Assembly: GCF_019550795.1 (NCBI RefSeq)
Contig: NZ_CP080545.1
Coordinates: 949,501 to 1,013,500, forward strand
DNA from: Paenibacillus sp. sptzw28
Lineage (GTDB): Bacteria; Bacillota; Bacilli; Paenibacillales; Paenibacillaceae
Direction: 5' to 3'
Length of the DNA stretch: 64,000 nucleotides
Part shown: positions 1,010 through 40,859 of the stretch, one piece after another
Numbering within the stretch: position 1 is the stretch's first letter
Layout of the letters: each line of letters begins with the position of its first letter
The notes under the pieces: generated by a model
Database searches by the model: none
Told to the model about the DNA's origin: nothing
Seen by the model: the letters and a program-made list of their open reading frames with translations, nothing else
Made by a program: the position numbers and the translations under genes

Positions 1010-4000
1010 ATGAAAAAAGGAATACTGGTAATGGTCTTTTTGCTCGTGTTCTCATTGATTCAGTTAGGAAGTCCCTTGACTGCGACTAAGGTGTCTGCGG
1101 AATTGGCGGACACGATTGTTCCGAGTCCGCCGGGCGCACCGGTTGAGCTTGCGGCCATACCCAGGAACAGCCAGGCGGATGTAAGCTGGGCACCGCCCGG
1201 ATTCGGCCACGGCAGATCGATTCTATACGTCGGAACCGGTACAGATTCTGACAGTATTGCGATGGAACACTTTACATCCTTGGGATTCACCGTAACGTTC
1301 GCGGAGGATCGGACCGTCACTTCCGCCGATGCAGGGAGCAACGATCTGGTGTTTGTTAGTGAATCCTCCAGTTCGTCTTATATTGCTGACAAATTCAAAT
1401 ATTCGACGGTGCCCGTCGTCTATTCCGAGCCGTATGTGCTGGACGACGCAGGTCTCAGTAAGGCGAATGAAGGAGACTTTGGCAATATCGCGGGCCAAAC
1501 CTCGGTTGTCATTAAGGACAGTGCTCATCCGCTTGCTGCCGGATTAAGCGGAATAGTTGACGTCTATACGCAGGCGGGAGAAATCAATTACGGAACGCCG
1601 GGCGAGTCGGCGGTTATTATTGCAACTGCTGCAGGCAATGAGAGTCAGGCGGTTATTTTCGGTTATGAGAAAGGCGCGAGCAACGTTAACGGAGAGCCGA
1701 TCCTCGCACGGCAAGTTTCCACCTTTCTGTTCGCCGGTCAGGAAGCCGTGATGACGGCTGAGGGCTGGACGCTTATCGATGCCGCGGTCAAATGGGCGAT
1801 CGGGCTGGAGGGCAGCTCCGAAACTTCGATGGATGCGAATAAGGTCAATTCGTATAAAATTTACCGAAGCACCAATCCGGAAGGTCCTTATACGATGGTT
1901 GCCGAGGTAGCGGATACCAAGTACCGTGATTTCGGACTGGATAACGGTCTGACTTATTATTATAAGGTCACTTCTGTCAGTGCAGGCGGGGAAAGTGTGC
2001 CATCTGCGACGGTTAGTGTCATGCCGATGGCGCCGTTGAACGCCCCGACCGGCTTGACCTCCGAAAGTGGTGACGGCCAGACGACGATTCGTTGGAACCC
2101 GGTCGCCGGAGCTGAATCCTATGTTGTGAAGCGCAGTACAGAGAATGGCATAAACTATGAGATGGTTGCCGGCGGTGTAACGGGAACCGAATTCACAGAT
2201 GCTACGGTCAGTAACGGGGTTAGGTATTACTATGTCGTATCTGCCGCAAGTCCGGTGACTGCAAGCGCCAATTCTGCCTCCGTTCAAGTTGTCCCTGCAC
2301 CCGGTAACGGAGCGCCTGCGATTCCGCAAGGTATAGAAGCGATTGCCGGAGACGCCCAAGTGATCTTGACTTGGCAAGAGACGAGCGGAGCAATATCTTA
2401 TACCATCAAACGCGGAGCCTTCAACAGCGGTCAATATGAGACCGTCGCCTCCAATATCTATGGTACAAGCTACCAGGATGCGGGGTTGGACAATGGCACA
2501 ACGTACGATTATGTGATTTCGGCGGAGAACGATCAGGGAGAAAGTTATTCCTCCGAACCGATCGCGGTTACGCCGGCGGATGTCGTGGTTGTCGCGAAAG
2601 ACGGGACGGGTGATTTCACAACGGTGCAGGCGGCATTGGACGCGGCTCCGAACTACAGTACGAAACGCCATGTTATTTATATCAAAAACGGCGTATACCG
2701 CGAGAAGCTGAAAGTTCCGAGCACCAAGACTAATCTCAGTTTCGTAGGCGAGAGCCGGGAGGGCACGGTATTGGTCTATAACGACAACGCCAGCACGCCC
2801 GGTCCTGATGGAACTCCGCTGGGTACGTCCCAAAGCTCGAGTCTCTTTATTTATCCTACCGATTTTATTGCGAAAAATCTAACAATCCAGAATGATTCCG
2901 GCATGAATACGGGTCAAGCTGTTGCTGCTTATATCAGGGGCGATCGCGCTTACTTCGACCATGTCCGTTTCCTCGGTTACCAGGATACGCTGTTCACCAA
3001 TAATGGCAGACATTATTATAGTAACTGCTTTGTTGAAGGGGATGTCGATTTTATATTCGGGCAATCTACGGCGGTGTTCGACCGTTGCCAAATCCACAGC
3101 AAACGCAATGGAGGAATGTTGACGGCCGCAAGTACGACGGAGGATACACCGTACGGGTACGTGTTCCTGAATTCGGAGATTACCTCTGATGCAGGGATCA
3201 AGAACGTTTATTTCGGAAGACCTTGGCGTCCGTACGCTGCAGTTGCATTTATCGATACGATGATCGATTCGTCGATCGCACCGTACGGCTGGAACAATTG
3301 GGGTAAAGTGGAAAATGAGAAAACAGCCAGATACTCAGAGTATAACAGCCGAGGTCCGGGGGCAAATCCCAAAGCGCGGGCTGGCTGGTCGAAGCAACTT
3401 ACACCGGAGGAAGCAAGTCAGTACACGGTACAAAATGTGTTAAAGGGCAATGATAACTGGAACCCGCTGCGGATTGGCATCATTCCGTTAAGCGATGTAT
3501 CCGCCCCTGTATTAACACTCGATCCTTTGGATACTCACGTGAACAATCCCACATTCACCGTATCGGGACGAGTGGACAAGCAAGCAGCCGTGACGATGAA
3601 CGGCCGGCATATCGAGGTGGCTTCCGATCTTACCTTCCGCACAACGGTGGAACTGGAGCTGGGAGACAATATTATTGCCGTTCAAGCTACAGATCCTTCA
3701 AGCAACATGACGGTTGCCGTTTCATTGCGGGTCGTCTATGACAATACCGCTCCTGTCATTATGTTGGATAACCCGGAAGGAGAGAAAGTCGACAATAGCT
3801 ATAATGCGTCTTCCAATCCTTATCCGGTTTCAGGCCGATTAAGCGAAGCGGGCACGGTATGGGTCAATGGCCAGGAAATTAGAGTGTCCGGAGATTTGGC
3901 TTTCACAACGAAAGTCAGTTTGCAACAAGGGAAAAATACAATCACGGTATCCGCCAAGGACTTGGCCGGCAATGCTGCCGAACCGGTTACGTATAATGTC

Positions 4001-28887: not shown

Positions 28888-28970
28888 ACTAACGGAACAC
28901 GATAGTTCCAAAACCCACACCGAGAGGCTGCCGCGAAAACGGTCGGCAGCCTCGTTAAGCTAACTGGCAG
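28888..28970 (+). repeat. Cassette-type site 2 (complete)
   Basis: Left arm ACTAACGGAACACGATAG (28888-28905), hairpin GAGGCTGCCG / CGGCAGCCTC (28924-28953), right arm GCTAACTGGCAG (28959-28970). The best-preserved copy. Confidence 0.8.
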
Positions 28971-29148
28971 TTTAACAGAGCGATGACTACTGTTTTGAGA
29001 AAATAACAGCATCCATTTTACAACTTCTATCCATGAGCATGCGTCTAATTCTTTGTGACTCGATATAATTACAATCAAAAGAAAAAGGCGGATTTTGAAT
29101 GACAAGCTTCACTGCCTAAAGTCTACCTGACGGAGAGGTGTCGATGAG

Positions 29149-30929: not shown

Positions 30930-31181
30930 TTGGAAATAAGCCATTGGCACTTGGGTTATTACAAGGATGGTAATGACATAGAAGCTGTATGTTTTTTTGA
31001 AGAAGACAGTTGGGTTGTTTACTACGATGATAGTAACGATAGTGGATTATTTGTTAAGTCTCAGCCAAGACATGAATTGTTTGGTGTTGTGATTTTTAAG
31101 GTTCGTGACTACGTAGAAGCAGAAAATAGATTTTATGAATGGGTAGAACGCAGTCTACTTCCATATAGAAAAAAATGCTAG
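30930..31181 (+). CDS. Small hypothetical cassette protein (83 aa)
   Basis: Starts at TTG 30930 with AAAGGAG about 10 bases upstream. The acidic, aromatic-rich sequence (EISHWHLGYYKDGNDIEAVC, then FFEEDSWVVYYDD) shows no signal, membrane segment or family that I recognise. Plus strand, one gene between two cassette-type sites. Confidence 0.6.
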   Translation: MEISHWHLGYYKDGNDIEAVCFFEEDSWVVYYDDSNDSGLFVKSQPRHELFGVVIFKVRDYVEAENRFYEWVERSLLPYRKKC

Positions 31182-31193
31182 TCCTTTTGTTAC

Positions 31194-31268
31194 GCTAACG
31201 GGTACGATAGTGGAGCAAACTGCTGCGGTGCAGATGCTCCATTTTTTCGTTCTTAGGCAAGATAACAG
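31194..31268 (+). repeat. Cassette-type site 4
   Basis: Left arm GCTAACGGGTACGATAG (31194-31210), hairpin GGAGCA...TGCTCC (31212-31240) followed by a T run, degenerate right arm CTTAGGCAAGATAACAG. Confidence 0.65.
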
Positions 31269-31339
31269 AGAAACATTATCCGTGCAGGAGGCGTCTAATC
31301 TTAGACAGGCGATAGAACTCACTGGAGGATGATACACAG

Positions 31340-31558
31340 ATGGAATTAGCACTTGGAATGATTTTAATATCCTGCTTAGTCGTATTTACGATTTGGAAGA
31401 GTGTAATTTGGATCCACAAGGGGATAAAATATAAGCAAACAGCTGAGATATTAAAAGGAATACTTGCCTTTTGCATACTCGCCTTATGCACTGGCATAAA
31501 CTACTGGTTCGGATCAATCGTCTATGATATCTTCAAGATGTCTGAATCGATATCTTAA
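31340..31558 (+). CDS. Small membrane protein (72 aa), unknown
   Basis: ATG 31340 with GGAGG about 10 bases upstream. Two hydrophobic helices (about 2-22 and 40-62) joined by a basic loop (IHKGIKYKQTAEILKG). No family recognised. A single-gene cassette whose downstream site has been split by an IS110-type element. Confidence 0.6.
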   Translation: MELALGMILISCLVVFTIWKSVIWIHKGIKYKQTAEILKGILAFCILALCTGINYWFGSIVYDIFKMSESIS

Positions 31559-31566
31559 AAAAACTT

Positions 31567-31597
31567 TGCCGCGGAATCAATCGGCAGGTTCGCTCAG
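31567..31597 (+). repeat. Cassette-type site 5, left part (right part at 33380)
   Basis: Hairpin TGCCGCGGAATCAATCGGCA (31567-31586), then GGTTCGCTCAG; the right arm TAACGGGCAG resumes at 33380 after the inserted element. Confidence 0.6.
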
Positions 31598-31689
31598 CTC
31601 CCTCAGAGAATAAGGTTTTTCTCACGAATGCTCGCTCATTCGCAGAATTTCACATTCATGTCTAAATAGGAGTTTAAAGGATTACATGA

Positions 31690-31960
31690 GATGGGCTAAG
31701 CAGTTCCGTTTGAGGGCATGCGGGAATAGAAGGTGCTGGTCTAATTACAACATCTTCCATATAAAGATTTACTGCACGTCTCTCTCCACAAGGTCCTTGG
31801 GATTCACTCTCCCAAATCTCAACGGGTCTATGCCCTCACATTCCTTCGTCCTATCTATCCAAGGTGTGGAGTCCGATCAACGTTAACGGAACGGGTCTAT
31901 GCCCTAAAGCCTAAAAATCTCGGTACTCCGTGCTTTCTTTGTGAAATCCTGCGAAACGAG
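31690..31960 (-). ncRNA. Candidate bridge RNA region of IS copy 1
   Basis: Conserved among the three copies. On the minus strand a segment GACCC-GTTCCGTTAACGTTGATCGG (31872-31896) sits where the copies differ, and its CCGTTAAC matches the element's own 5' junction. Further along, GGAATGT (31838-31844) is complementary to the element start ACATTCC. By analogy with IS621 these would be target and donor guides. Boundaries are approximate. Confidence 0.55.
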
Positions 31961-31993
31961 CTAATCTACGTGTCTGGGTTGCGAATTTAGTTG

Positions 31994-33271
31994 TTAAGCT
32001 GCTAGTGGCGGTTGAGTCTTATCCGCGGAGAAAGTTTGTCCTTCTCTCGCCATGGCTACAAGCATTCGAGCCAATTTACCAATCAACTTCATCATGGATT
32101 GCATTTTCGTCATTCGTTTTACTTCAATGTTGTGTGCATGCAGGGCTTGGAATGCACGATTGTGAGATAAGAGGTGAAACACCGAGAAGTACAAATGCTT
32201 CCGTAGTAATGAGTTTCCTCGTTTGGTTAGCTTAATGTGCCCCTTATACTTGCCAGAACTACGTTCCGCTAAGTTTAATCCAGCCTTTCGCAATAACTGA
32301 TTCCCGTGAGACAGCTTACGTAAGTCCCCGCCAAATGCGAATATGGCAGCCGTTGCAGGAACGGAAACACCGGCGGATCGAACGAGATCAGAACAGGGGA
32401 TTTCGGGCAATAGCTTTTCAATGATCTCGTCCGCTTCATCAATGATGTGGCAGATTCGTTCATATTCTTCGATGAGGTGCCTAAGTTCCCATTTGTCTTC
32501 TTCAAGGGCAGTAGCGTCTCCAACGCTATGTCTAGCGAGTGTTTGGAGCTGAGTCGCCTTGTTCCTGCCTCGCACACCGCCAGGTCTAGCCATATACACT
32601 CCCCAGGTTTGCACCATCTGCTCCGGAGTTAACTGCAATACGTCAGATGGGGCTGGAAAACGACGCAAAGTAGCTAATGAACGAGGGCTAAAAATATCTT
32701 CGAACGCTTGTCTGTATTCTGGAAAACGGATATCCAGCCAACGGTGGATTCTGTTCTTAATCCGTCCGGATTTAACAACCCAATGCTCTCTGTTTGTGAC
32801 AATAACCCGTAAGCGGCGGAAGGCTTCTTCCTTTGGAGAGAAGGGCGTGTAGAACCCGCGACTCACTGCATCTGCAATGACCAAAGCGTCCTTTGGGTCA
32901 TTCTTTGAGGGGGAGTTGTCTCTGTTTTCCTTATTGCGCTTGGTCGTCATTGGATTAACAAGAACAACTGAAACACCTTGTTTCATTAACCAATTGGCGA
33001 TATTGAACCAGTAGTGACCGGTGCTTTCCATTCCCACAACGACGTCATTCAAGTTGTGCATTTTCTGTAATTTACGAATGTTGCTTATTAAATGCTCAAA
33101 GCCCACATGGTCGTTCGAAAACATAATTGAGCGATTGGTGAGGACAATACCTCGAAAGTTAATAGCTTGAGCAGCATGTTTCTCCTTGGCAATGTCGATG
33201 CCTATGACAAGGGTGGAAGTAGAAATACGTTCTACACGTTGATTTTGAGCTTTAATTAATCTAGACTTCAT
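31994..33271 (-). CDS. IS110-family transposase (DEDD recombinase), copy 1
   Basis: 425 residues from ATG 33271 (GGAGG 7 bases upstream). N-terminal RuvC-like DEDD domain: STLVIGIDIAKEKH (Asp26), VVVGMESTGHYW and DPKDALVIAD; C-terminal transposase_20 domain with GLNLAERSSGKYKGHIKLTK, then RGNSLLRKHLY carrying the conserved Ser. Full family length, no frame break, so it may be active. Together with an element-encoded RNA it should excise and insert the element. Confidence 0.9.
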   Translation of the reverse strand: MKSRLIKAQNQRVERISTSTLVIGIDIAKEKHAAQAINFRGIVLTNRSIMFSNDHVGFEHLISNIRKLQKMHNLNDVVVGMESTGHYWFNIANWLMKQGVSVVLVNPMTTKRNKENRDNSPSKNDPKDALVIADAVSRGFYTPFSPKEEAFRRLRVIVTNREHWVVKSGRIKNRIHRWLDIRFPEYRQAFEDIFSPRSLATLRRFPAPSDVLQLTPEQMVQTWGVYMARPGGVRGRNKATQLQTLARHSVGDATALEEDKWELRHLIEEYERICHIIDEADEIIEKLLPEIPCSDLVRSAGVSVPATAAIFAFGGDLRKLSHGNQLLRKAGLNLAERSSGKYKGHIKLTKRGNSLLRKHLYFSVFHLLSHNRAFQALHAHNIEVKRMTKMQSMMKLIGKLARMLVAMAREGQTFSADKTQPPLAA

Positions 33272-33379
33272 AATAACGCCTCCTAAGGTGAGTTCTGAGG
33301 GCTGCAACCCAGTACATACTCATCCTAGCGGGGCGTTCGTTTTTCTGCAAATTGAATCTACTAACACCTACAGGAATGT

Positions 33380-33391
33380 TAACGGGCAGTT
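33380..33391 (+). repeat. Cassette-type site 5, right arm
   Basis: TAACGGGCAG follows the element end at 33379. Rejoined with 31587-31597 it gives GGTTCGCTCAGCTAACGGGC. Confidence 0.6.
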
Positions 33392-33479
33392 TTGTAAAAT
33401 GAGTTTATAGATTACATTCGCACTTATGTGCGTTAGAATAGAGTGTGTGTATGGAAATAATGTGGAGAGAAGTGGTTAA

Positions 33480-33971
33480 ATGTTCAAATATACTTTATGT
33501 TTCGTGAAACAAAATAACAATTTGCTTTTGTTAAATAGAGATTTTGCTCCAACAAAGGGACTCTGGAACGGTGTAGGAGGTAAAATTGAAGAAAACGAAA
33601 CACCGTTAGAATGTGCAGTACGTGAAACATTTGAAGAAACTGGAATTGAACTATTGAATATTCAGTATAAAGGAATCGTTACGTGGGATGTCGATGGAAG
33701 CTATTCAGGAGGCATGTATGCATTTTTAGCGGAACTACCACACGAATATGTCTATTTGACTCCTTCAAAAGTAGATGAAGGTATTCTAGACTGGAAACCA
33801 ATAGACTGGATTTTATCTGAGGGTAACTTTGGTGTTGGAGAAATGATTCCTCAATTCTTGCCAACAATATTGAACAATGAAGGGTGTTATGAACATAAAT
33901 GCACCTTATACAATAATAAGTTAACCAGCTATACTGCAATACCTATTACTCATGAACTTGTGTTGAACTAA
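33480..33971 (+). CDS. NUDIX hydrolase (8-oxo-dGTP diphosphatase-like)
   Basis: 163 residues from ATG 33480. The complete Nudix box is visible: GGKIEENETPLECAVRETFE, then ETGIEL (G-x5-E-x7-RE-x2-EE-x-G). The family hydrolyses nucleoside diphosphate derivatives; LWNGVGGK and the early strand order resemble MutT/8-oxo-dGTPases. Its stop codon TAA lies inside the left arm of site 6. A single-gene cassette on the plus strand. Confidence 0.85.
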   Translation: MFKYTLCFVKQNNNLLLLNRDFAPTKGLWNGVGGKIEENETPLECAVRETFEETGIELLNIQYKGIVTWDVDGSYSGGMYAFLAELPHEYVYLTPSKVDEGILDWKPIDWILSEGNFGVGEMIPQFLPTILNNEGCYEHKCTLYNNKLTSYTAIPITHELVLN

Positions 33972-34049
33972 CGGACACAAGACTTTAATATAACAACACC
34001 ACGAGGTTGCCGCGGGATCGTTCGGCAGCCTCGCTCTGCTAACTGGCAG
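33966..34049 (+). repeat. Cassette-type site 6 (complete)
   Basis: Left arm AACTAACGGACACAAGACT (33966-33984), hairpin GAGGTTGCCG / CGGCAGCCTC (34003-34032), right arm GCTAACTGGCAG (34038-34049). Confidence 0.78.
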
Positions 34050-34078
34050 TTTTGTCCAATACATGGGAGGTGTTTGAA

Positions 34079-34864
34079 ATTAAAGGATACACATGTAGTT
34101 GCTGTGGTGATTACCATGATGAACTCCCGACGAGCTTCGGGAACCCAGCACCTGTTTATTACGACATTGCCTCGCCCGAGGATCAGGATAAGAGGTTTGA
34201 TCTAGGAGAAGACTTATGTATTATGGATAATGAGTATTTTTTTATCCGTTGCTGCATTGAGATTCCTATTATCGATACCGATGAACACCTGATTTGGGGA
34301 GTCTGGGTTTCTCTGAGCGAGGCTAATTTCAATAAAACAAAAGAGCTCTGGGACAACCAGGAATTACTTGAGCCAATGTATAGTTGGCTTTCTACTTCTT
34401 TGCCTTGTTATCCCGACACAGTAAACTTAAAAGCATTTGTACACCATAGAGGAAATGGACTAAGACCTTACATCGAACTGGAACCTACAGACCATCCTTT
34501 AGCGGTAGAATCTAAAATTGGAGTTACATATGAACGTGTTCAACAGATAGCTGAAGAACTATGTTCAAATAACGAACGAACAATGACAAACTGGCCATTT
34601 GAAGATCGACAAAGTACGGCTGTAATTACAACATATGGGGTGATGATGAAGAAACGCTTCATTTTATATGTATCACATGATGAAGATGATGGAATCTGGC
34701 AATTTCTTGAGGGCGCAACAGTCGCTGAAGAAGAAGCAAGAATGATAACTCTAAAAGAAATAGTTGAATTAGACCCCAGCCTAATTGAACTATCTGACTT
34801 AACCTTGGGGTGGATAGCCTGGAGGGAATCAGTTAACGACCAGTGGCACAAGGTGAAGAAATAA
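34079..34864 (+). CDS. DUF2199 domain protein with DUF2185-like C-terminal domain
   Basis: About 261 residues. The N-terminal part (KGYTCSCCGDYHDELPTSFG, DLCIMDNEYFFIRCCIEIP, WGVWVSLSEANF, LELEPTDHPLAVE-like) is DUF2199, a Cys-rich family of unknown function. The end (LYVSHDEDDGIWQFLEGATV, then GWIAWRES) resembles DUF2185/immunity-type domains. The family start falls at 34079, where an ATT codon is preceded at 8 bases by GGGAGG; an in-frame TTG at 34052 is the nearest usual start but lies in the repeat arm. Start is therefore uncertain. Confidence 0.72.
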   Translation: MKGYTCSCCGDYHDELPTSFGNPAPVYYDIASPEDQDKRFDLGEDLCIMDNEYFFIRCCIEIPIIDTDEHLIWGVWVSLSEANFNKTKELWDNQELLEPMYSWLSTSLPCYPDTVNLKAFVHHRGNGLRPYIELEPTDHPLAVESKIGVTYERVQQIAEELCSNNERTMTNWPFEDRQSTAVITTYGVMMKKRFILYVSHDEDDGIWQFLEGATVAEEEARMITLKEIVELDPSLIELSDLTLGWIAWRESVNDQWHKVKK

Positions 34865-34881
34865 TTGGGCAAAGCAATTGC

Positions 34882-34901
34882 GCTAACGGGCACGATATTC
34901 C
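34882..34901 (+). repeat. Cassette-type site 7 (left arm only)
   Basis: GCTAACGGGCACGATATTCC; no hairpin or right arm follows before the next small gene. Confidence 0.6.
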
Positions 34902-34945
34902 TAATAGAAAGTGACAACAAATTTCTTGAGAAAAGGTGAGTTCAA

Positions 34946-35119
34946 TTGACTTTAGGTTACTTCTTACTTTCAGTTGTGATTTCAATTATTCTCTTTTATA
35001 TTGTTGGTATTACGATTCAACCAAACAACAATGATGGAGGAATGATTGCTATTATTGGAATTGTTATTTCAATACAGCTCTCATTTATAACTGCAATTTT
35101 ATTAAATAAAAAAACGTAA
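34946..35119 (+). CDS. Small membrane protein (57 aa), unknown
   Basis: TTG 34946 with AAAAGGTGAG 5 bases upstream. The reading frame (start TLGYFLLSVVISIILFYIVG, later MIAIIGIVISIQLSFITAIL) has two membrane helices linked by a short polar loop (QPNNNDGG) and ends at TAA 35117. No family recognised. It fits the one-gene-per-site pattern. Confidence 0.6.
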   Translation: MTLGYFLLSVVISIILFYIVGITIQPNNNDGGMIAIIGIVISIQLSFITAILLNKKT

Positions 35120-35180
35120 GGGACAGTAAAACTAATTTAAAAACAACAGGGTGTATTTTAAATGTAACTCTGAGTTTTAT

Positions 35181-35262
35181 GCTAAAGGAAACGATAGCGT
35201 AATGATTATGTCTGGAGCAGGCGCCGCGGCAATCTTTTCCTGATCGTTGAAGTAACTGGCTC
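35181..35262 (+). repeat. Cassette-type site 8 (degenerate)
   Basis: Left arm GCTAAAGGAAACGATAGCG (35181-35199), a GC-rich stretch near 35218-35230, right arm AGTAACTGGCTC (35251-35262). Confidence 0.5.
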
Positions 35263-35339
35263 GGAACAATCATACTCAAATTGGGGCAGTAGAGCAGTTT
35301 TTGGATGCATGCTCGACAGAATGGAGGAGGGGGGAGTTC

Positions 35340-35627
35340 ATGTTTTTTTTGAGGAGAATGGCCTTTTGGTTCTCAGTATTTAGCATCATTATTTGTTTTA
35401 AAGACTACTGGGAAACTCTTCATGATCCCATGATTCTCATGATTGGACTCGGACCTTTTGAACCATTTCATCATTGGATGCTTGATTTTGATCCTTTTAA
35501 GCCACCAAATACTGCCGATATCAGAGAAAAGTTTCCTGGTTATATAGCACATTTTATTTTTTTCTTTTTAATTGGAACAATTCTTGATAAATTTGCTCGA
35601 TCATTTAAACGTAAGCGAAGGAACTAA
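35340..35627 (+). CDS. Small membrane protein (95 aa), unknown
   Basis: ATG 35340 follows GGGGGAG. Two hydrophobic segments (about 5-20: AFWFSVFSIIICF; about 66-84: AHFIFFFLIGTIL) with a proline/aromatic-rich middle (GPFEPFHHWMLDFDPF) and a basic tail. No family recognised. The stop codon lies within the left arm of site 9. Confidence 0.62.
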   Translation: MFFLRRMAFWFSVFSIIICFKDYWETLHDPMILMIGLGPFEPFHHWMLDFDPFKPPNTADIREKFPGYIAHFIFFFLIGTILDKFARSFKRKRRN

Positions 35628-35661
35628 TGGACATAGAGACTGCCTCGCAATCAATCGGCAG
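35622..35661 (+). repeat. Cassette-type site 9 (left arm and hairpin)
   Basis: AACTAATGGACATAGAG (35622-35638) and hairpin CTGCC...GGCAG (35640-35661). A right arm is not recognisable before the next element. Confidence 0.55.
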
Positions 35662-35799
35662 CCACTCCGAAGGGTCACTATAATCCTTAACCATTTATAC
35701 CCTCCACAAATATGGTAATATCGTTGAACTCCCTCGGTACGAATTAGTTTTCTCACGAATGCTCGCTTATTCGCAGGATTTCGCCCCTTTTATGAGGGA

Positions 35800-36090
35800 T
35801 GAAAGTTAGGAAGAGCGACCCCGTTATAGACGTTGGCAACATGAAGGCGTAGGGGATAGAGGGGGAGGTTGTCGCCCCAGACATTTCCAGATACTGCACG
35901 CATTCTCCACGCCACCCTCGGAGGTTTTCACTCCCATGTCTCAACGGGTCTTTGCCCTCTCATTCCTTCGTTACACCTGTCCAAGGGGTGGAGGCCGGTC
36001 TTGCTAACGGTACGGGTCGGTGCCCTTTGGTTCAATGTATCCGGTACTCCGTGCTTTCTTTGAAATCCCGCGAATAAGCCAATCTACGTG
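35800..36090 (-). ncRNA. Candidate bridge RNA region of IS copy 2
   Basis: Counterpart of the copy 1 region. The variable segment on the minus strand is GACCC-GTACCGTTAGCAAGACCGG (36017 to 35995); CCGTTAGCA is identical to this copy's own 5' junction. GGAATG (35961-35966) matches the complement of the element start. Boundaries approximate. Confidence 0.55.
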
Positions 36091-36112
36091 CAACGCAACG
36101 GTATGACTTGGT

Positions 36113-37384
36113 TTAAGCAGCTTGCTGAAGAGGGCGTGTCTTCTGTGGGATGTAAGCTTGACCCGTACGTGCCATGCCGACCAGGATCCGAGCCAGTTTG
36201 CCGCATAGCTTCATGATCGGCCTCATTTTCTTCATCTTCTTCACGTTCACATTGTATGCATGCATTGCTTGAAACTCGGGATTATTCATCACGAGACTCA
36301 TCGTCATCATGAAGATAAAGCGTCGAAGGCGAGATCGCCCGCGCTTGCTGATCTTCATCTGTCCGGTCCATTTACCTGAACTTGCTTCGGCAAGATTGAG
36401 ACCCGCATGACGCAGCAGGGCATTTCCGTGAACAAAGCCGCTTAAATCGCCGGCCTCACCAAGAATACCGGCTAGCGAGATGGCACTAATCCCCTTAACG
36501 GCCAGCATGGACTTCGCGAAGGGAATGCGTTCTAATACGGAAACGATCTCACGCTCTACGTCCTTCAACTGTGCACAAGCCAAGTCATACTCTGCGAGCA
36601 GCTGCTTCAAATGAAGCTTGTAGGCCTGCTCTGCTTGTCTGGAACCGACAGAGCGTCCAGCCAGTGCGATTAAGGCGCGGGCCTTCCGCTCACCGCAGTG
36701 CCGCTTCATAAGAGACTTCCATCGCTGAATCAGATCTTGTGGTTGTAACTCGCTGAGTTCCGCTGGCGTTGGAAACAGACGAAGCGTAGCTAACGAACCA
36801 ACGCCTATGAGGTTCCGGAATACCTGCCGCAGCTTAGGAAAAACCACGTCAACCCAGCGATGAATTTGGTTTTTGGCGCTTACGACTCGCTTCACTACAA
36901 AGTCCCGGTTGGAGAGTAAGACGCGGAGCTCTGTAAAGGCTTCAGGTGTGGTGCGTGCGATGGAGTAATACCCGTTCTTCACCATGTCGGCAATGACAAG
37001 CGCATCCTTTTTATCGCTCTTTGAGGGCGTATTGTCGCGGTTTTCTTTGTTCTTTTTCACAAGATGCGGATTTACGAGAACGACTTCAAACTGGCGTTCT
37101 GCAAGCCACCGGGATACATTGAGCCAGTAGTGTCCGGTCGGTTCCATTCCCACAATTGCTGTCGTTAAGTGATGGGCGGTCTGCAGACGCTGGATCCATT
37201 GAAGAAGGTTGAGAAATCCATCCTCGTCGTTGGAAAAGGATAAAGGATTGCCGATCACGATACCGCGAAAATTTACGGCGCGTGCGACATGCGTTTGCTG
37301 GGCGATGTCGATCCCGACGACGAGATGCTGGGCGGTAATTTTTTCAATGAGTTGATTTTGCCGGGCTTGGGATTTAAACTTCAT
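36113..37384 (-). CDS. IS110-family transposase (DEDD recombinase), copy 2
   Basis: 423 residues, full length. DEDD motifs HLVVGIDIAQQTH, VGMEPTGHYW and DKKDALVIAD; C-terminal Ser domain with GLNLAEASSGKWTGQMKISK, then RGRSRLRRFIF. It is homologous to but clearly diverged from copy 1 (many substitutions along the chain), so the elements are related family members rather than recent duplicates. AGGAGG precedes ATG 37384. Confidence 0.9.
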   Translation of the reverse strand: MKFKSQARQNQLIEKITAQHLVVGIDIAQQTHVARAVNFRGIVIGNPLSFSNDEDGFLNLLQWIQRLQTAHHLTTAIVGMEPTGHYWLNVSRWLAERQFEVVLVNPHLVKKNKENRDNTPSKSDKKDALVIADMVKNGYYSIARTTPEAFTELRVLLSNRDFVVKRVVSAKNQIHRWVDVVFPKLRQVFRNLIGVGSLATLRLFPTPAELSELQPQDLIQRWKSLMKRHCGERKARALIALAGRSVGSRQAEQAYKLHLKQLLAEYDLACAQLKDVEREIVSVLERIPFAKSMLAVKGISAISLAGILGEAGDLSGFVHGNALLRHAGLNLAEASSGKWTGQMKISKRGRSRLRRFIFMMTMSLVMNNPEFQAMHAYNVNVKKMKKMRPIMKLCGKLARILVGMARTGQAYIPQKTRPLQQAA

Positions 37385-37498
37385 AGTAGAGCGTCCTCCT
37401 GGATGATGGGATTTTTAGGGCTATGACCCGTTGTGTACTCCCATCGTACCGAGGCGCTCGTTTTTTTGCAAAGCGGAAATTTAACGCTCTACAGGAAT

Positions 37499-37566
37499 GC
37501 TAACGGAGCGATAGTACAGAAAAAAGCGATGGAGACGATCCATCGCTTCGTTGTGCTAACTGGCAG
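37499..37566 (+). repeat. Cassette-type site 10 (left arm interrupted by IS copy 2)
   Basis: Left arm GCTAACGGAGCGATAG (37499-37514), hairpin AAGCGATGGA / TCCATCGCTT (37524-37548), right arm GCTAACTGGCAG (37555-37566). Confidence 0.78.
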
Positions 37567-37660
37567 GATAATGCAACAAAACTCGCTAAATGAACGTCTA
37601 AGCATTGGAAGTATTAGGGATTTCAATGGGAATTGCATTCAAGGTAAGGAGGGGGTTAAT

Positions 37661-37750
37661 ATCAAGCGTACCTTAATGATATTGGTGTTCCTTATATCCG
37701 CGACAGCAAATGGCGTTTCAATATACAATCGGATACAAACCTTTTATTAA
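37661..37750 (+). CDS. Putative 29-residue membrane peptide with non-AUG start
   Basis: AAGGAGGGGG (37645-37655) is followed after five bases by ATC, then a frame reading KRTLMILVFLISATANGVSI, then YNRIQTFY. One hydrophobic helix with a basic start. An in-frame ATG lies much further upstream without a ribosome site. Either translation begins at ATC or the gene lost its ATG. It is 37 bases upstream of the VanZ-like gene. Confidence 0.35.
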   Translation: MKRTLMILVFLISATANGVSIYNRIQTFY

Positions 37751-37787
37751 GGTTTGTTCTTGACTTTTTAGCAGAGGAGACCTATTT

Positions 37788-38336
37788 ATGAGATTTGTTA
37801 TTGATATGCTTTCATTCGCAATTCCCATAACGCTGATTTACTTTATTGTTAGAATTTGTTTATTGAAAGTGTTTAGAATCACGTGGGTTCGAGAAGTTCT
37901 TAATATATCTTTTGTTTTATATATTTCTTCATTAGTATTTATTGTTTGGCTTTATTATGCCACTCAGACTGACTATGTTCTATATAATCTTATCCCTTTT
38001 AAAACTATCATAGAATACGTTCAAGAATTCCCTTCTAGCACGGCTATTAAAAATATTGTGGGTAATCTCGCAATTTGCATGCCGTTTGGTTTTTACTATT
38101 ATTTCAATCTCAGGATCATACCCAAAATCAACATAGCAGTTTATGCTGTTATTATTCCGGTGATTATTGAATCCATACAGTTGTTGATGTATTTCATTAA
38201 TCTAGGAATGAGGGCTGTAGATATTGATGACGTTATCTTAAATTGTTCCGGCATTATAATAGCGTACTACATGACGAAAAGTCTTTTTCAGAAGAAGCGG
38301 AATCCCGCTAAATTGCGACGCACGGTCGGTTACTAA
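37788..38336 (+). CDS. VanZ-like family membrane protein
   Basis: 182 residues from ATG 37788 with GAGGAG upstream. Four to five membrane helices with the VanZ pattern: a paired start, YNLIPFKTI, then NIVGNLAICMPFGFYYYF, and a closing helix with VDIDDVILNCSGIIIAYY. VanZ proteins give low-level teicoplanin tolerance in one vancomycin cluster, but most members have no known role. Single gene in the cassette array. Confidence 0.82.
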   Translation: MRFVIDMLSFAIPITLIYFIVRICLLKVFRITWVREVLNISFVLYISSLVFIVWLYYATQTDYVLYNLIPFKTIIEYVQEFPSSTAIKNIVGNLAICMPFGFYYYFNLRIIPKINIAVYAVIIPVIIESIQLLMYFINLGMRAVDIDDVILNCSGIIIAYYMTKSLFQKKRNPAKLRRTVGY

Positions 38337-38384
38337 GTTTAAGTCGACTTCTGTGAATTCGCAAAATCTTCTCGATAAATGATT

Positions 38385-38391
38385 AAGCTAA
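38385..38391 (+). repeat. Cassette-type site 11, left end (continues at 39953)
   Basis: AAGCTAA precedes the element start; CGGAGTACGATAG follows its end at 39953. Rejoined they read GCTAACGGAGTACGATAG. Confidence 0.65.
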
Positions 38392-38500
38392 ACATTCCTG
38401 TTAGTCCTAAGAAATGGACTTTGTCAAAAAAGGAGCGCCTCGGTATGATGGGTTTGTCCACGGGCTCGAAACCCAACACCATCAAGGAGGCGCTCTTACT

Positions 38501-39568
38501 ATGAAGTTTAAGCAATCGGACGGGCAAAATCAACGTATTGAACGAATTACCACCTCTCATCTTGTTGTGGGAATTGACATGGCAAAGGAAACCCATGTTG
38601 CACAAGCCACGAATTTCCGCGGAATAGTCCTTTCCAATCGGCATCTTTCGTTTAAGAACACACATGAAGGATTTGAAAAATTACAACGGTGGCTGGATGC
38701 CTTACAGCAGAAACACAGATTAAAAAGTCTCATCATCGGCATGGAACCGACAGGACACTATTGGACAAACTTGGCCAATTGGCTTGCTCAGAAAGGAGTA
38801 AACGTTGTTTTGGTGAATCCAGCAACGACGAAACGGAACAAGGAAAACCGTGACAACTGTCCCTCCAAGAGCGATCCGAAGGACGCACTTGTGATCGCAG
38901 ATGTTGTGAGCCGTGGCTATTACTATGATTACACTCGTCAAGCGACTCACTTTCAAAGGTTACGCACCATTATGAGCGATCGAGAATTTTGGGTTGCGAA
39001 TAGTGTTCGATTGCAGAATCGTATTGTTCGGTGGCTGGATATTCGTTTCCCTGAGTATGCTTCCGTTTTTAAACGGTTGTTAGAGGAGTATCAGCGCATT
39101 GCCAATATCTTAGAACAGATCGAAAAAGAACTTGTAACTTTACTAGGTGATATACCTCTAGTCAGCCAACTTCGCTCCGTAAAAGGTCTTGGAACGATTT
39201 ACATTGCAGCGATTCTGTCTGGTGCAGGTGACTTGAAACAGTACGCCCATGGGCGTCAGTTACTGAGGAAAGCCGGTTTAAACTTAGCCGAAAGCATGTC
39301 AGGAAAACGCAAGGGAGAGATCGTGATCTCCAAACGAGGAGATGCCAAACTGCGAAAATATATGTATCTCGCTACGCTTACACTGGTAGGAACCAACCCA
39401 GTCTTTCGGCAGTTGCATGAAAATAATGTTCAGGTCAAGCATATGAGCAAGCAACAATCGGTGTTTAAGCTGCTTGGGAAACTGGCTCGAATCCTAATCG
39501 GTATGGTTCAAAGCGGAGAGAAATTCACTCCTGAAAAAACAGTCCACTCGTACGCTCAAGCAGCATAA
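38501..39568 (+). CDS. IS110-family transposase, internally deleted copy 3
   Basis: 355 residues from ATG 38501 (AAGGAGG upstream). The DEDD half (HLVVGIDMAKETH, GMEPTGHYW, DPKDALVIAD) and the C-terminal Ser domain (GLNLAESMSGKRKGEIVISK) are present. Compared with copy 1, about 72 residues between FPEYASVFK and LLEEYQRIANIL are missing in frame; copies 1 and 2 have there the SPRSLATLRRFP-type segment that joins the two halves. Probably inactive, although its substrate ends and RNA region remain. Confidence 0.85.
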   Translation: MKFKQSDGQNQRIERITTSHLVVGIDMAKETHVAQATNFRGIVLSNRHLSFKNTHEGFEKLQRWLDALQQKHRLKSLIIGMEPTGHYWTNLANWLAQKGVNVVLVNPATTKRNKENRDNCPSKSDPKDALVIADVVSRGYYYDYTRQATHFQRLRTIMSDREFWVANSVRLQNRIVRWLDIRFPEYASVFKRLLEEYQRIANILEQIEKELVTLLGDIPLVSQLRSVKGLGTIYIAAILSGAGDLKQYAHGRQLLRKAGLNLAESMSGKRKGEIVISKRGDAKLRKYMYLATLTLVGTNPVFRQLHENNVQVKHMSKQQSVFKLLGKLARILIGMVQSGEKFTPEKTVHSYAQAA

Positions 39569-39589
39569 AACGTGATAGAAACCACGTAA

Positions 39590-39940
39590 ATTGACTCATT
39601 CGCAGGATTTCGACTAAAGAAAGCACGGAGGACCGAGTACGTCTCCGATAAGGGCGCAGACCCATCAGCTAAACGCTATCGGTCTCCACACCTTGGATAG
39701 GTGTAACGAAGGAATGTAAGGGCATAGACCCGTCGAGCCGTGGGATGGTAAACCTTCAGGGATTTGTGGAGTATGCGTGCAGTAGAAAAGGCCTTTGGGG
39801 AAATGTTCCAGACGTTTCTTCTATTTCCGCATGCCCTAATCCTAGACGGAAAAGTACATGTGGCTTACATTCCCCCCAACCGTTACAATACAAGGTGATG
39901 AAATCCTGCGAAGGAGTGAGCATACGTGAGATAAACCTTT
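39590..39940 (+). ncRNA. Candidate bridge RNA region of IS copy 3
   Basis: Plus strand. The variable segment GACCC-ATCAGCTAAACGCTATCGG (39659-39682) contains AGCTAAAC, identical to this copy's own 5' junction (AAGCTAA|AC). GGAATGT at 39711-39717 is complementary to the element start ACATTCC. Flanking GGGC..AGACCC and CTCCACACC blocks are shared with the other copies. Confidence 0.58.
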
Positions 39941-39952
39941 AAAACCGAGGGA

Positions 39953-40014
39953 CGGAGTACGATAGTTCAACCATTACACAGCGGCAGCCGGCCAAACGAT
40001 CGGCTACTTTTTTA
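39953..40014 (+). repeat. Cassette-type site 11, remaining part
   Basis: CGGAGTACGATAGTTCAACC (39953-39972), then hairpin GCAGCCG / CGGCTAC (39984-40007) and a T run. The right arm is not clear. Confidence 0.6.
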
Positions 40015-40111
40015 AGTTTTGACACCCTGGCACACATGTGACCCCGCACGCCAACGGTCATTTTGCCAAAATGTGAATATAGTGTGTTAACCAGTTAAAG
40101 GGGGTTTTGCC

Positions 40112-40561
40112 ATGGGTGCGAGGGTTAAGTATAGGTCGTCTGACGTTGATTTGTTGGCGCGGCTTATGAGGGGCGAGGCACAGGCGGAAGGCGAAAAGGG
40201 TATGTTAACGGTTGGCGCTGTCGTGATTAATCGGGCCGTAGTCAGGTGTTCGGACTTCAAGAACGTCAACAATATTAATGATGTTATTTATCATTATATG
40301 AATGACGATGCCATGTTCGATGCCATATTAGAACCCGATTTTTATCTGAAGTCACGGGAACGAGAGCGGCGGCTAGCTGAACAGACCATAAAAGGCTGGC
40401 GAGAATGGCCTTCAAAATACTCGCTGTGGTATTTCAACCCGTGGGGGCCAACATCTCAAGCTTGTCCCGCAATGTGGTACGGTCAACCGCTCGCGGGTGC
40501 TTGGAAAAATCATTGTTTTTACCAACCTACAAGCACGGAATGCGCGGAAATTTACCGATAA
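40112..40561 (+). CDS. Cell wall hydrolase, SleB/CwlJ type (Hydrolase_2)
   Basis: 149 residues from ATG 40112. Catalytic domain of the spore-cortex lytic family: DVDLLARLMRGEAQAEGEKG with the key Glu, VGAVVINRAV, then WGPTSQACPAMWYGQPLAG. There is no signal peptide and no peptidoglycan-binding domain, as in CwlJ rather than SleB. In the family it cleaves cortex peptidoglycan on germination. It sits in the array between sites 11 and 12 on the plus strand. Confidence 0.85.
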   Translation: MGARVKYRSSDVDLLARLMRGEAQAEGEKGMLTVGAVVINRAVVRCSDFKNVNNINDVIYHYMNDDAMFDAILEPDFYLKSRERERRLAEQTIKGWREWPSKYSLWYFNPWGPTSQACPAMWYGQPLAGAWKNHCFYQPTSTECAEIYR

Positions 40562-40777: not shown

Positions 40778-40859
40778 GCTAACGGAGACGATAGCACGGC
40801 AATGGAACCGATCCATCGTCTGTATTAGTGTTAGTGCAATGAGTACAGCGGCAGTTTAG
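40778..40859 (+). repeat. Cassette-type site 12
   Basis: Left arm GCTAACGGAGACGATAG (40778-40794), hairpin with ATGGA / TCCAT (40802-40816), right arm remnant CGGCAGTTTAG (40849-40859). Confidence 0.65.

Follow-up and report, generated by a model that had tools for sequence, protein, structure and literature searches.

A predicted bridge RNA with target and donor guides behind the transposase gene of IS110-type elements in Paenibacillus sp. sptzw28 and its relatives

In a 64,000-nucleotide stretch of the Paenibacillus sp. sptzw28 genome (6.1 Mb, one contig; the whole stretch is called the window below), three IS110-type elements carry a noncoding region 3' of the transposase gene. A loop in this region resembles the element's own insertion junction. 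Does the region encode an RNA that guides insertion? We consider it very probable that all three are insertion sequences of the IS110 type and that their 3' noncoding region encodes a bispecific bridge RNA, with one set of guides for the target and one for the donor. An earlier note on this DNA had proposed an IS110 bridge RNA on the 3' side of the transposase, and covariation, four guides and a two-armed fold now support that proposal.

A conserved two-armed fold

The loop is part of a two-armed predicted RNA of about 159 nucleotides. In the window, and likewise at the loci read, this RNA lies 3' of the gene and not upstream. For the alignment, 90 RNA instances with a recognisable 3' end were reduced to 41 distinct RNAs (9 further instances had no pattern-matched 3' end). 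We aligned 39 of these; the two not used were a near-copy that has a small deletion and an RNA that has a duplication. The RNAalifold structure has an outer stem, GCAC/GTGC, and two arms, with a small GGGC..GACCC hairpin capping each of the two internal loops.

After four weak pairs were taken out of this structure, 30 pairs were tested. They are paired in 97.5% of 1158 cells and 12 of the 30 changed on both sides, both values being reached in none of 500 shuffles. The number of further pair types in the fold is not beyond chance, with 57 of 500 shuffles equalling it. Since G-U cells outnumber A-C cells in the paired columns (42 vs 16), the strand given here is favoured.

The loop of arm 1 is complementary to the right flank on its 5' side and identical to the left flank on its 3' side. 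In arm 2, AGGAATG is complementary to the element start, CATTCCT, as the earlier note had claimed for its GGAATG block, and TGGGAG resembles the element end, GGGAG. The order of guides from 5' to 3' is right target, left target, right donor, left donor. Of 154 distinct RNAs, 142 contain GGAATG and 144 contain TGGGAG, which fit CATTCC and GGGAG; such near-invariance leaves no measure of covariation. Folding and aligning the 3' regions, the check that had been proposed, gave the two-armed fold with compensatory changes and, as predicted, a right target guide and two putative donor guides.

A covariance model, at an expect value (E) of up to 1e-5, matches 170 of 394 genomes of the family, 187 of 392 of the order and 73 of 398 of the class, in draws that overlap. 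The class-level matches spread over 48 of 146 genera. At most seven candidates were scored per genome, so RNA copy numbers are lower bounds. The arrangement was found again in named relatives, as seen in the best 80 of 556 confirmed places. The host is close to one of these, Paenibacillus baekrokdamisoli, since the match coordinates in that species are identical to those in a genome (G003) of the host's GTDB genus. A search of window positions 31000-40500 against Rfam matched nothing at E up to 1.

Some variation of the fold is seen at loci L081, L082, L128 and L309, where the donor loop carries a longer version of its small hairpin (e.g. GGGCTTATTTTATAAGACCC in L081), partly with a stem extending it.

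Guides and flanks vary together

A lack of covariation between loop and target in a larger alignment had been named beforehand as refuting the proposal; the larger alignment shows such covariation. From all loci, some of which are the same place, 281 RNA instances were collected and 272 parsed; one of the other nine was a chance window match. Of the parsed instances, 33 had no usable left end and 16 no usable right end, and removal of duplicates left 163 left and 197 right junctions. Scores are the best of a few registers, in observed and shuffled pairs alike.

At both sides the guides follow the flanks far above shuffles. The left guide matches on average 8.21 of 9 positions, compared with 6.09 for shuffled pairs (maximum of 200 shuffles 6.36), and 158 of the 163 junctions score at least 7. 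The five poor ones were retained, some of them probably with a miscalled left end. By position, bases 4 to 11 after the hairpin match the left flank in 71, 82, 90, 96, 97, 99, 98 and 96%. The right guide reaches 5.65 of 8 against 4.05 (maximum of 500 shuffles 4.29); in the register seen most often, its positions 1 to 7 match in 91, 77, 65, 63, 68, 61 and 52%.

Counting each guide type once gives the same picture, with 6.58 of 8 vs 3.91 on the left (33 types) and 5.32 of 7 vs 3.64 on the right (89 types); none of 1000 shuffles was as high on either side. When only host bases are scored, 29 left guide types reach 4.66 of 6, compared with 1.85 for redealt guides (maximum of 5000 shuffles 2.86). 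This score takes the six bases before the AG or AA adjoining the element, sets the register independently of the guide, and covers 160 of the 163 junctions.

The agreement also holds within some target classes. For the left guide, no shuffle of 1000 was as high in the CGTTAG (12 types) or AGGAG (10 types) class. For the right guide, the numbers of shuffles per 1000 as high are 0 for CGTTAG (31 types), 0 for AGGAG (19), 0 for GCTAAAC (7), 10 for CGTTAAC (5) and 60 for GGGCAGC (12). From the within-class results, the right guide is weakly matched in the AGGAG and GGGCAGC classes.

In the mechanism we propose, the target loop would read the host flanks, its right guide pairing with the right flank and its left guide equalling the left flank, and the donor loop (AGGAATG, TGGGAG) would read the element's own ends (CATTCCT, GGGAG). 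The complex of transposase and RNA would then join a donor circle and the target at the core, AG in most members, with no net change of host bases. On the side of sequence, this is supported by the fold with its compensatory changes, the guide/flank covariation, the ends and precise empty sites for two relatives. We infer transcription, RNA binding, the circular intermediate and strand exchange from work on IS621 and IS1111.

The three copies in the window

The element ends were placed by comparison with family members. The elements that the earlier note set at 31690..39717 are real, but their true extents reach beyond that span. Their features are as follows.

31599..33377, minus strand: element copy 1, ATTCC to GGGA, 1,779 bp
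31997..33268, minus strand: copy 1 transposase, IS110 type, 424 amino acids from ATG, PF01548 and PF02371, NF033542 over cut-off
31774..31933, minus strand: copy 1 predicted bridge RNA, member of the alignment
31909..31917, minus strand: copy 1 right target guide position, TTTTTAGGC, 3 of 8 against its own flank, no match
31881..31889, minus strand: copy 1 left target guide, CCGTTAACG, from junction comparison
31837..31845, minus strand: copy 1 right donor guide, AGGAATG..
31807..31814, minus strand: copy 1 left donor guide, TGGGAG..
35730..37498, minus strand: element copy 2, ATTCC to GGGA, 1,769 bp
36116..37384, minus strand: copy 2 transposase, IS110 type, 423 amino acids, with the domains and NF033542; model and fold match ISCro4 and IS621
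35896..36054, minus strand: copy 2 predicted bridge RNA, member of the alignment, with compensatory changes
36030..36036, minus strand: copy 2 right target guide, ATTGAAC, complement of the right flank GTTCAA
36003..36010, minus strand: copy 2 left target guide, CCGTTAGC, from junction comparison
35959..35967, minus strand: copy 2 right donor guide
35929..35936, minus strand: copy 2 left donor guide
38394..39952, plus strand: element copy 3, ATTCC to GGGA, 1,559 bp, transposase gene shortened
38414..39568, plus strand: copy 3 transposase frame, 384 amino acids, PF01548 and PF02371
39623..39780, plus strand: copy 3 predicted bridge RNA, member of the alignment
39640..39647, plus strand: copy 3 right target guide, CGTCTCCG, complement of CGGAGACG
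39668..39675, plus strand: copy 3 left target guide, GCTAAACG, from junction comparison
39710..39718, plus strand: copy 3 right donor guide
39741..39748, plus strand: copy 3 left donor guide position, TGGGATGG

All three proteins contain PF01548 and PF02371 (the DEDD/RuvC N-terminal domain and the Transposase_20 C-terminal domain). They also pass the cut-off of NF033542, “IS110 family RNA-guided transposase”, as does the protein of locus L014. The structure model of the copy 2 transposase has a mean predicted local distance difference test (pLDDT) of 85.6. Its best 11 Foldseek matches are ISCro4/IS621 chains, with template modelling (TM) scores of 0.59-0.62 by query and 0.78-0.83 by target, and the matched recombinase structures are complexes with bridge RNA. 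Copy 3 lacks an inner part of the transposase, a full-length protein matching it in two separate stretches. Elsewhere in the genome copies are common: the copy 2 protein is matched by 29 stretches, many of which are pieces.

The longest stretch common to a loop and its own left junction is CCGTTAAC (8 bases) in copy 1, CCGTTAGCA (9) in copy 2 and AGCTAAAC (8) in copy 3, which bears out the earlier claim of 7 to 9 matching bases and the letters quoted for it. The match is specific to the own copy. With another copy's junction it reaches at most 7 bases, for the copy 1 loop and the copy 2 junction, whose targets are alike in kind; comparisons of copy 3 with the others give 3 to 4. What had been called junction is partly element, however: the final one or two matched bases before ATTCC, and also the A of ATTCC, belong to it, so that about 5 to 7 of the matched bases are host sequence.

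A right-hand guide had been reported as not evident. It does exist, before the first GGGC..GACCC hairpin, and is clear in copy 2 (7 of 8 scored positions complementary to its own right flank), partial in copy 3 and absent in copy 1. The copy 3 guide CGTCTCCG is the exact complement of CGGAGACG in an uninterrupted repeat at window position 40779.

Core dinucleotide and element ends

Most elements (143 of 167) have AG in the guide and in both junctions. Another 16, all of the GCTAAAC and CGTTAAC classes, have AA in the guide and left junction and AC or AG in the right junction, and the remaining 8 show other variations. In the genome, 22 sites of the repeat have no more than one mismatch to GCTAACGGNNACGATAG, and most of them read GCTAACGG; two or more of these sites are other copies' junctions. 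With two mismatches allowed there are 54 sites, compared with 26 for the reversed pattern. The second A of the AA core is probably carried by the element, and the guide corresponds to the junction, not to the unoccupied target. In this class, a donor core AA would meet a target core AC or AG.

Loci L330-L333 (genome G275) hold a lone divergent element with the guide CTACCTAAAGC, whose left flanks, GAAAAGGAACGAAAGC, are conserved over about 16 bases. It falls at the base of the AA-core clade in a tree with two distant outgroup proteins, with end branches at the limit and without the GADIA-motif proteins; this tree was not used for rooting.

Other junctions involve the element ends and donor guides themselves. 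At L075, after position 3822, and at L110, after 3812 (Paenibacillus sp. 1_12), two different relatives carry an identical left end of another element, CATTCCTGTAGAGCG.., at the same place in their conserved right donor guide (ACGAAG|CATTCC). It is as if this element targeted the RNA gene of its own kin; a full copy of it, including its own RNA, was not assembled in that genome. At L008, L302 and L358, the right end of the element directly abuts ATTCCTG of another element, and these junctions may be tandem insertions or products of donor-site recombination.

Alternative explanations

Several results weigh against a bridge RNA. The single-sequence folding energy is ordinary (z -0.21, with 77 of 200 shuffles equally good). 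The left guide is not separable from shuffles within the GCTAAAC (315 of 1000 as high, 3 types), CGTTAAC (502, 2 types) and GGGCAGC (491, 2 types) classes, and the donor guides, being nearly invariant, stand outside covariation testing. In the window, the right guide of copy 1 has no match to its own right flank (3 of 8) and that of copy 3 only a partial one (5 of 8). In elements of the AA kind, copies 1 and 3 included, the guide equals the left junction and not the core of the right junction.

Two other explanations would do without a guide RNA. If the matching stretches acted as DNA, the transposase binding a target-like double-stranded site within the element, guide/flank covariation would be expected as well, and all the evidence given here is DNA sequence. 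Such a site would not call for two target stretches, in opposite senses, within one internal loop of a conserved fold, nor for compensatory changes and G-U pairs on one strand. RNA guides have moreover been shown experimentally for relatives (PMC11187229, PMC11208160; here and below, the published systems are compared through excerpts of the cited papers). We regard the DNA site as highly improbable, and give still less credit to the idea that the conserved region is a structured 3' untranslated region of the transposase mRNA, or an attenuator of it, with the likeness to the flanks coming from a shared ancestry of ends and target. The region does lie directly behind the gene and does fold. Its scaffold is kept, however, while only the two loop sides track the flanks, and they do so also at unrelated targets (L093, L088, L308 and the AGGAG branch). 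A bridge RNA with target and donor guides remains our preferred reading.

Comparison with known systems

Bridge RNAs, downstream ones included, are already known. The definition of a target loop and a donor loop is that of Durrant et al. 2024 (PMC11208160), who predict a bridge RNA for the majority of IS110 and IS1111 members. According to Siddiquee et al. 2024 (PMC11187229), IS1111 elements have a downstream RNA with the top-strand match first, subterminal repeats of 11-13 bp and proteins of 330-350 amino acids. IS110 elements there have a mostly upstream RNA and proteins of 315-450 amino acids, and some members have a downstream region.

With IS621 and ISCro4 (PMC11208160; PDB 8wt6-8wt9, 9t56) the window elements share the recombinase fold, a target and a putative donor internal loop, two guides per loop on opposite strands and a dinucleotide core common to both ends. 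They differ in having the RNA behind the gene rather than before it, the right guide preceding the left in each loop, a protein about 100 residues longer, and the small GGGC..GACCC hairpin in both loops. The seekRNA elements of IS1111 (ISEc11, ISPa11, ISKpn4; PMC11187229) are alike in that the RNA lies 3' of the gene, the top-strand complement precedes the other-strand match, and some members target repeats (REP for ISPa11). In contrast to these, the window copies have no clear subterminal inverted repeats, a longer transposase and visible putative donor guides. In the excerpt of PMC11187229, IS110-type elements with a long noncoding region behind the gene are mentioned as a group, without guides; compared by this description, they are alike in transposase type and layout.

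Are the elements then true IS1111 members, rather than IS110-type elements with a downstream RNA? The earlier note had likened them to that group, which is right for the position of the RNA and the order of the guides, top-strand guide first, as reported for IS1111 (PMC11187229). Inverted repeats of at least 10 bp near the ends, with one mismatch, also occur in 10 of 26 AGGAG-class end pairs, and over 109 end pairs the longest repeat averages 7.18, compared with 6.37 for shuffled letters. The likeness fails in protein length, 423 and 424 amino acids in the intact window copies and roughly 390-440 in the family, outside the 330-350 reported for IS1111 (PMC11187229). It also fails in the repeats: with at most one mismatch, the window copies have only 5, 5 and 7 bp, and repeats of at least 10 bp are found in 1 of 62 CGTTAG and 1 of 8 GGGCAGC end pairs. 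We find IS1111 membership unlikely. The noncoding region of IS110 in the narrow sense lies upstream, and here the RNA lies behind the gene. Plasmid matches bear generic names only. By their features, the tree containing no named IS110 or IS1111 reference, the elements appear to work like bridge RNA elements and to be members of the IS110 superfamily, not to be filed as IS1111.

In terms of natural diversity, these elements add a bridge RNA layout with a long IS110-type recombinase, a downstream RNA and the right guide before the left in both loops. Well over a hundred distinct natural guide/flank pairs make the reading of guide order and core testable. Searches of open-licence PubMed Central turned up no account of this four-guide RNA family in Bacilli and none of IS110 elements that target Shine-Dalgarno sequences; they did not extend to subscription papers or to most preprints.

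Targets of the elements

Copies 2 and 3 are inserted into one repeat family, on opposite strands. This dispersed repeat consists of CTAACGGnnACGATAG, a GC-rich hairpin and GCTAACTGGCAGTTT, and stands between small reading frames in a manner resembling a cassette array. In the genome its sites form clusters near 0.98-1.17, 3.19-3.25 and 4.59 Mb. In the window it is found at the following positions.

28889-28975: dispersed repeat
33968-34060: dispersed repeat
37500-37575: dispersed repeat
31195, 34883, 40779: half sites of the repeat

An integron reading of this array was rejected, as the GCTAAC half sites on the two sides of the hairpin form a direct repeat and not an inverted one. No match to the integron integrase model TIGR02249 passed the cut-off in this genome. 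Matches below the cut-off are present in all 14 control genomes, so weak ones are uninformative.

A different target is seen in one branch of relatives, with guides such as GTAAAGGAGCAAG. The left flanks mostly end in AGGAG, and the insertion lies inside Shine-Dalgarno sequences. Of 78 distinct right junctions of this AGGAG class, 48 have a start codon (ATG, GTG or TTG) 4-16 bases after GGGA, opening a frame of 50 codons or more. Junctions of the other classes give 6 of 120, and 32 shifted positions of the same AGGAG-class sequences average 12.5 of 78 (maximum 17).

Empty sites are available for L283 and L276: joining the two flanks gives a sequence that is matched by uninterrupted sites in sister species, and the core shows no gain or loss of host bases. 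Alignments were obtained for 5 of 6 and 10 of 13 junction-spanning genomes, and all 15 show AGGAGG and a start codon. After insertion, the GGGAG of the element precedes the host G, which gives GGAGG. This right end is also common outside the AGGAG branch, so it may be inherited and not selected; the direction of insertion relative to the gene is set by the target.

In a quick protein tree, which includes 68 of the 106 distinct sequences (87 of 272 entries were left out, having no frame of sufficient length), the six target classes need 5 changes, the minimum. The AGGAG class alone needs 3, which places other classes within or between its members.

We think it rather probable that a downstream-guided IS110 branch, spread across several Bacilli families, has its target guide fixed on the Shine-Dalgarno sequence. 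Insertion would fall between the AGGAG and the start codon, with the element oriented like the gene. The right end would restore GGAGG, the host gene keeping its ribosome-binding site, and the element would be read from the host promoter. Sister branches would aim the same scaffold at intergenic repeats on either strand. One predicted RNA scaffold has been redirected, within one transposase clade, to opposite-strand repeats and to ribosome-binding sites. If the ribosome-binding-site reading is true, RNA here guides a mobile element to a feature common to most bacterial genes, possibly with built-in gene sparing.

Insertions at GAAGGAG before pyrF in Geobacillus were considered and rejected, since in the excerpt of PMC8024623 they are DDE-type elements with target duplications, not IS110.

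Finally, at AGGAG-class left ends from L246 onwards, the element start following the host AGGAG has an ATG with a stop two codons later (e.g. ATGAATTAA in L246). This ATG might catch ribosomes from the split site.

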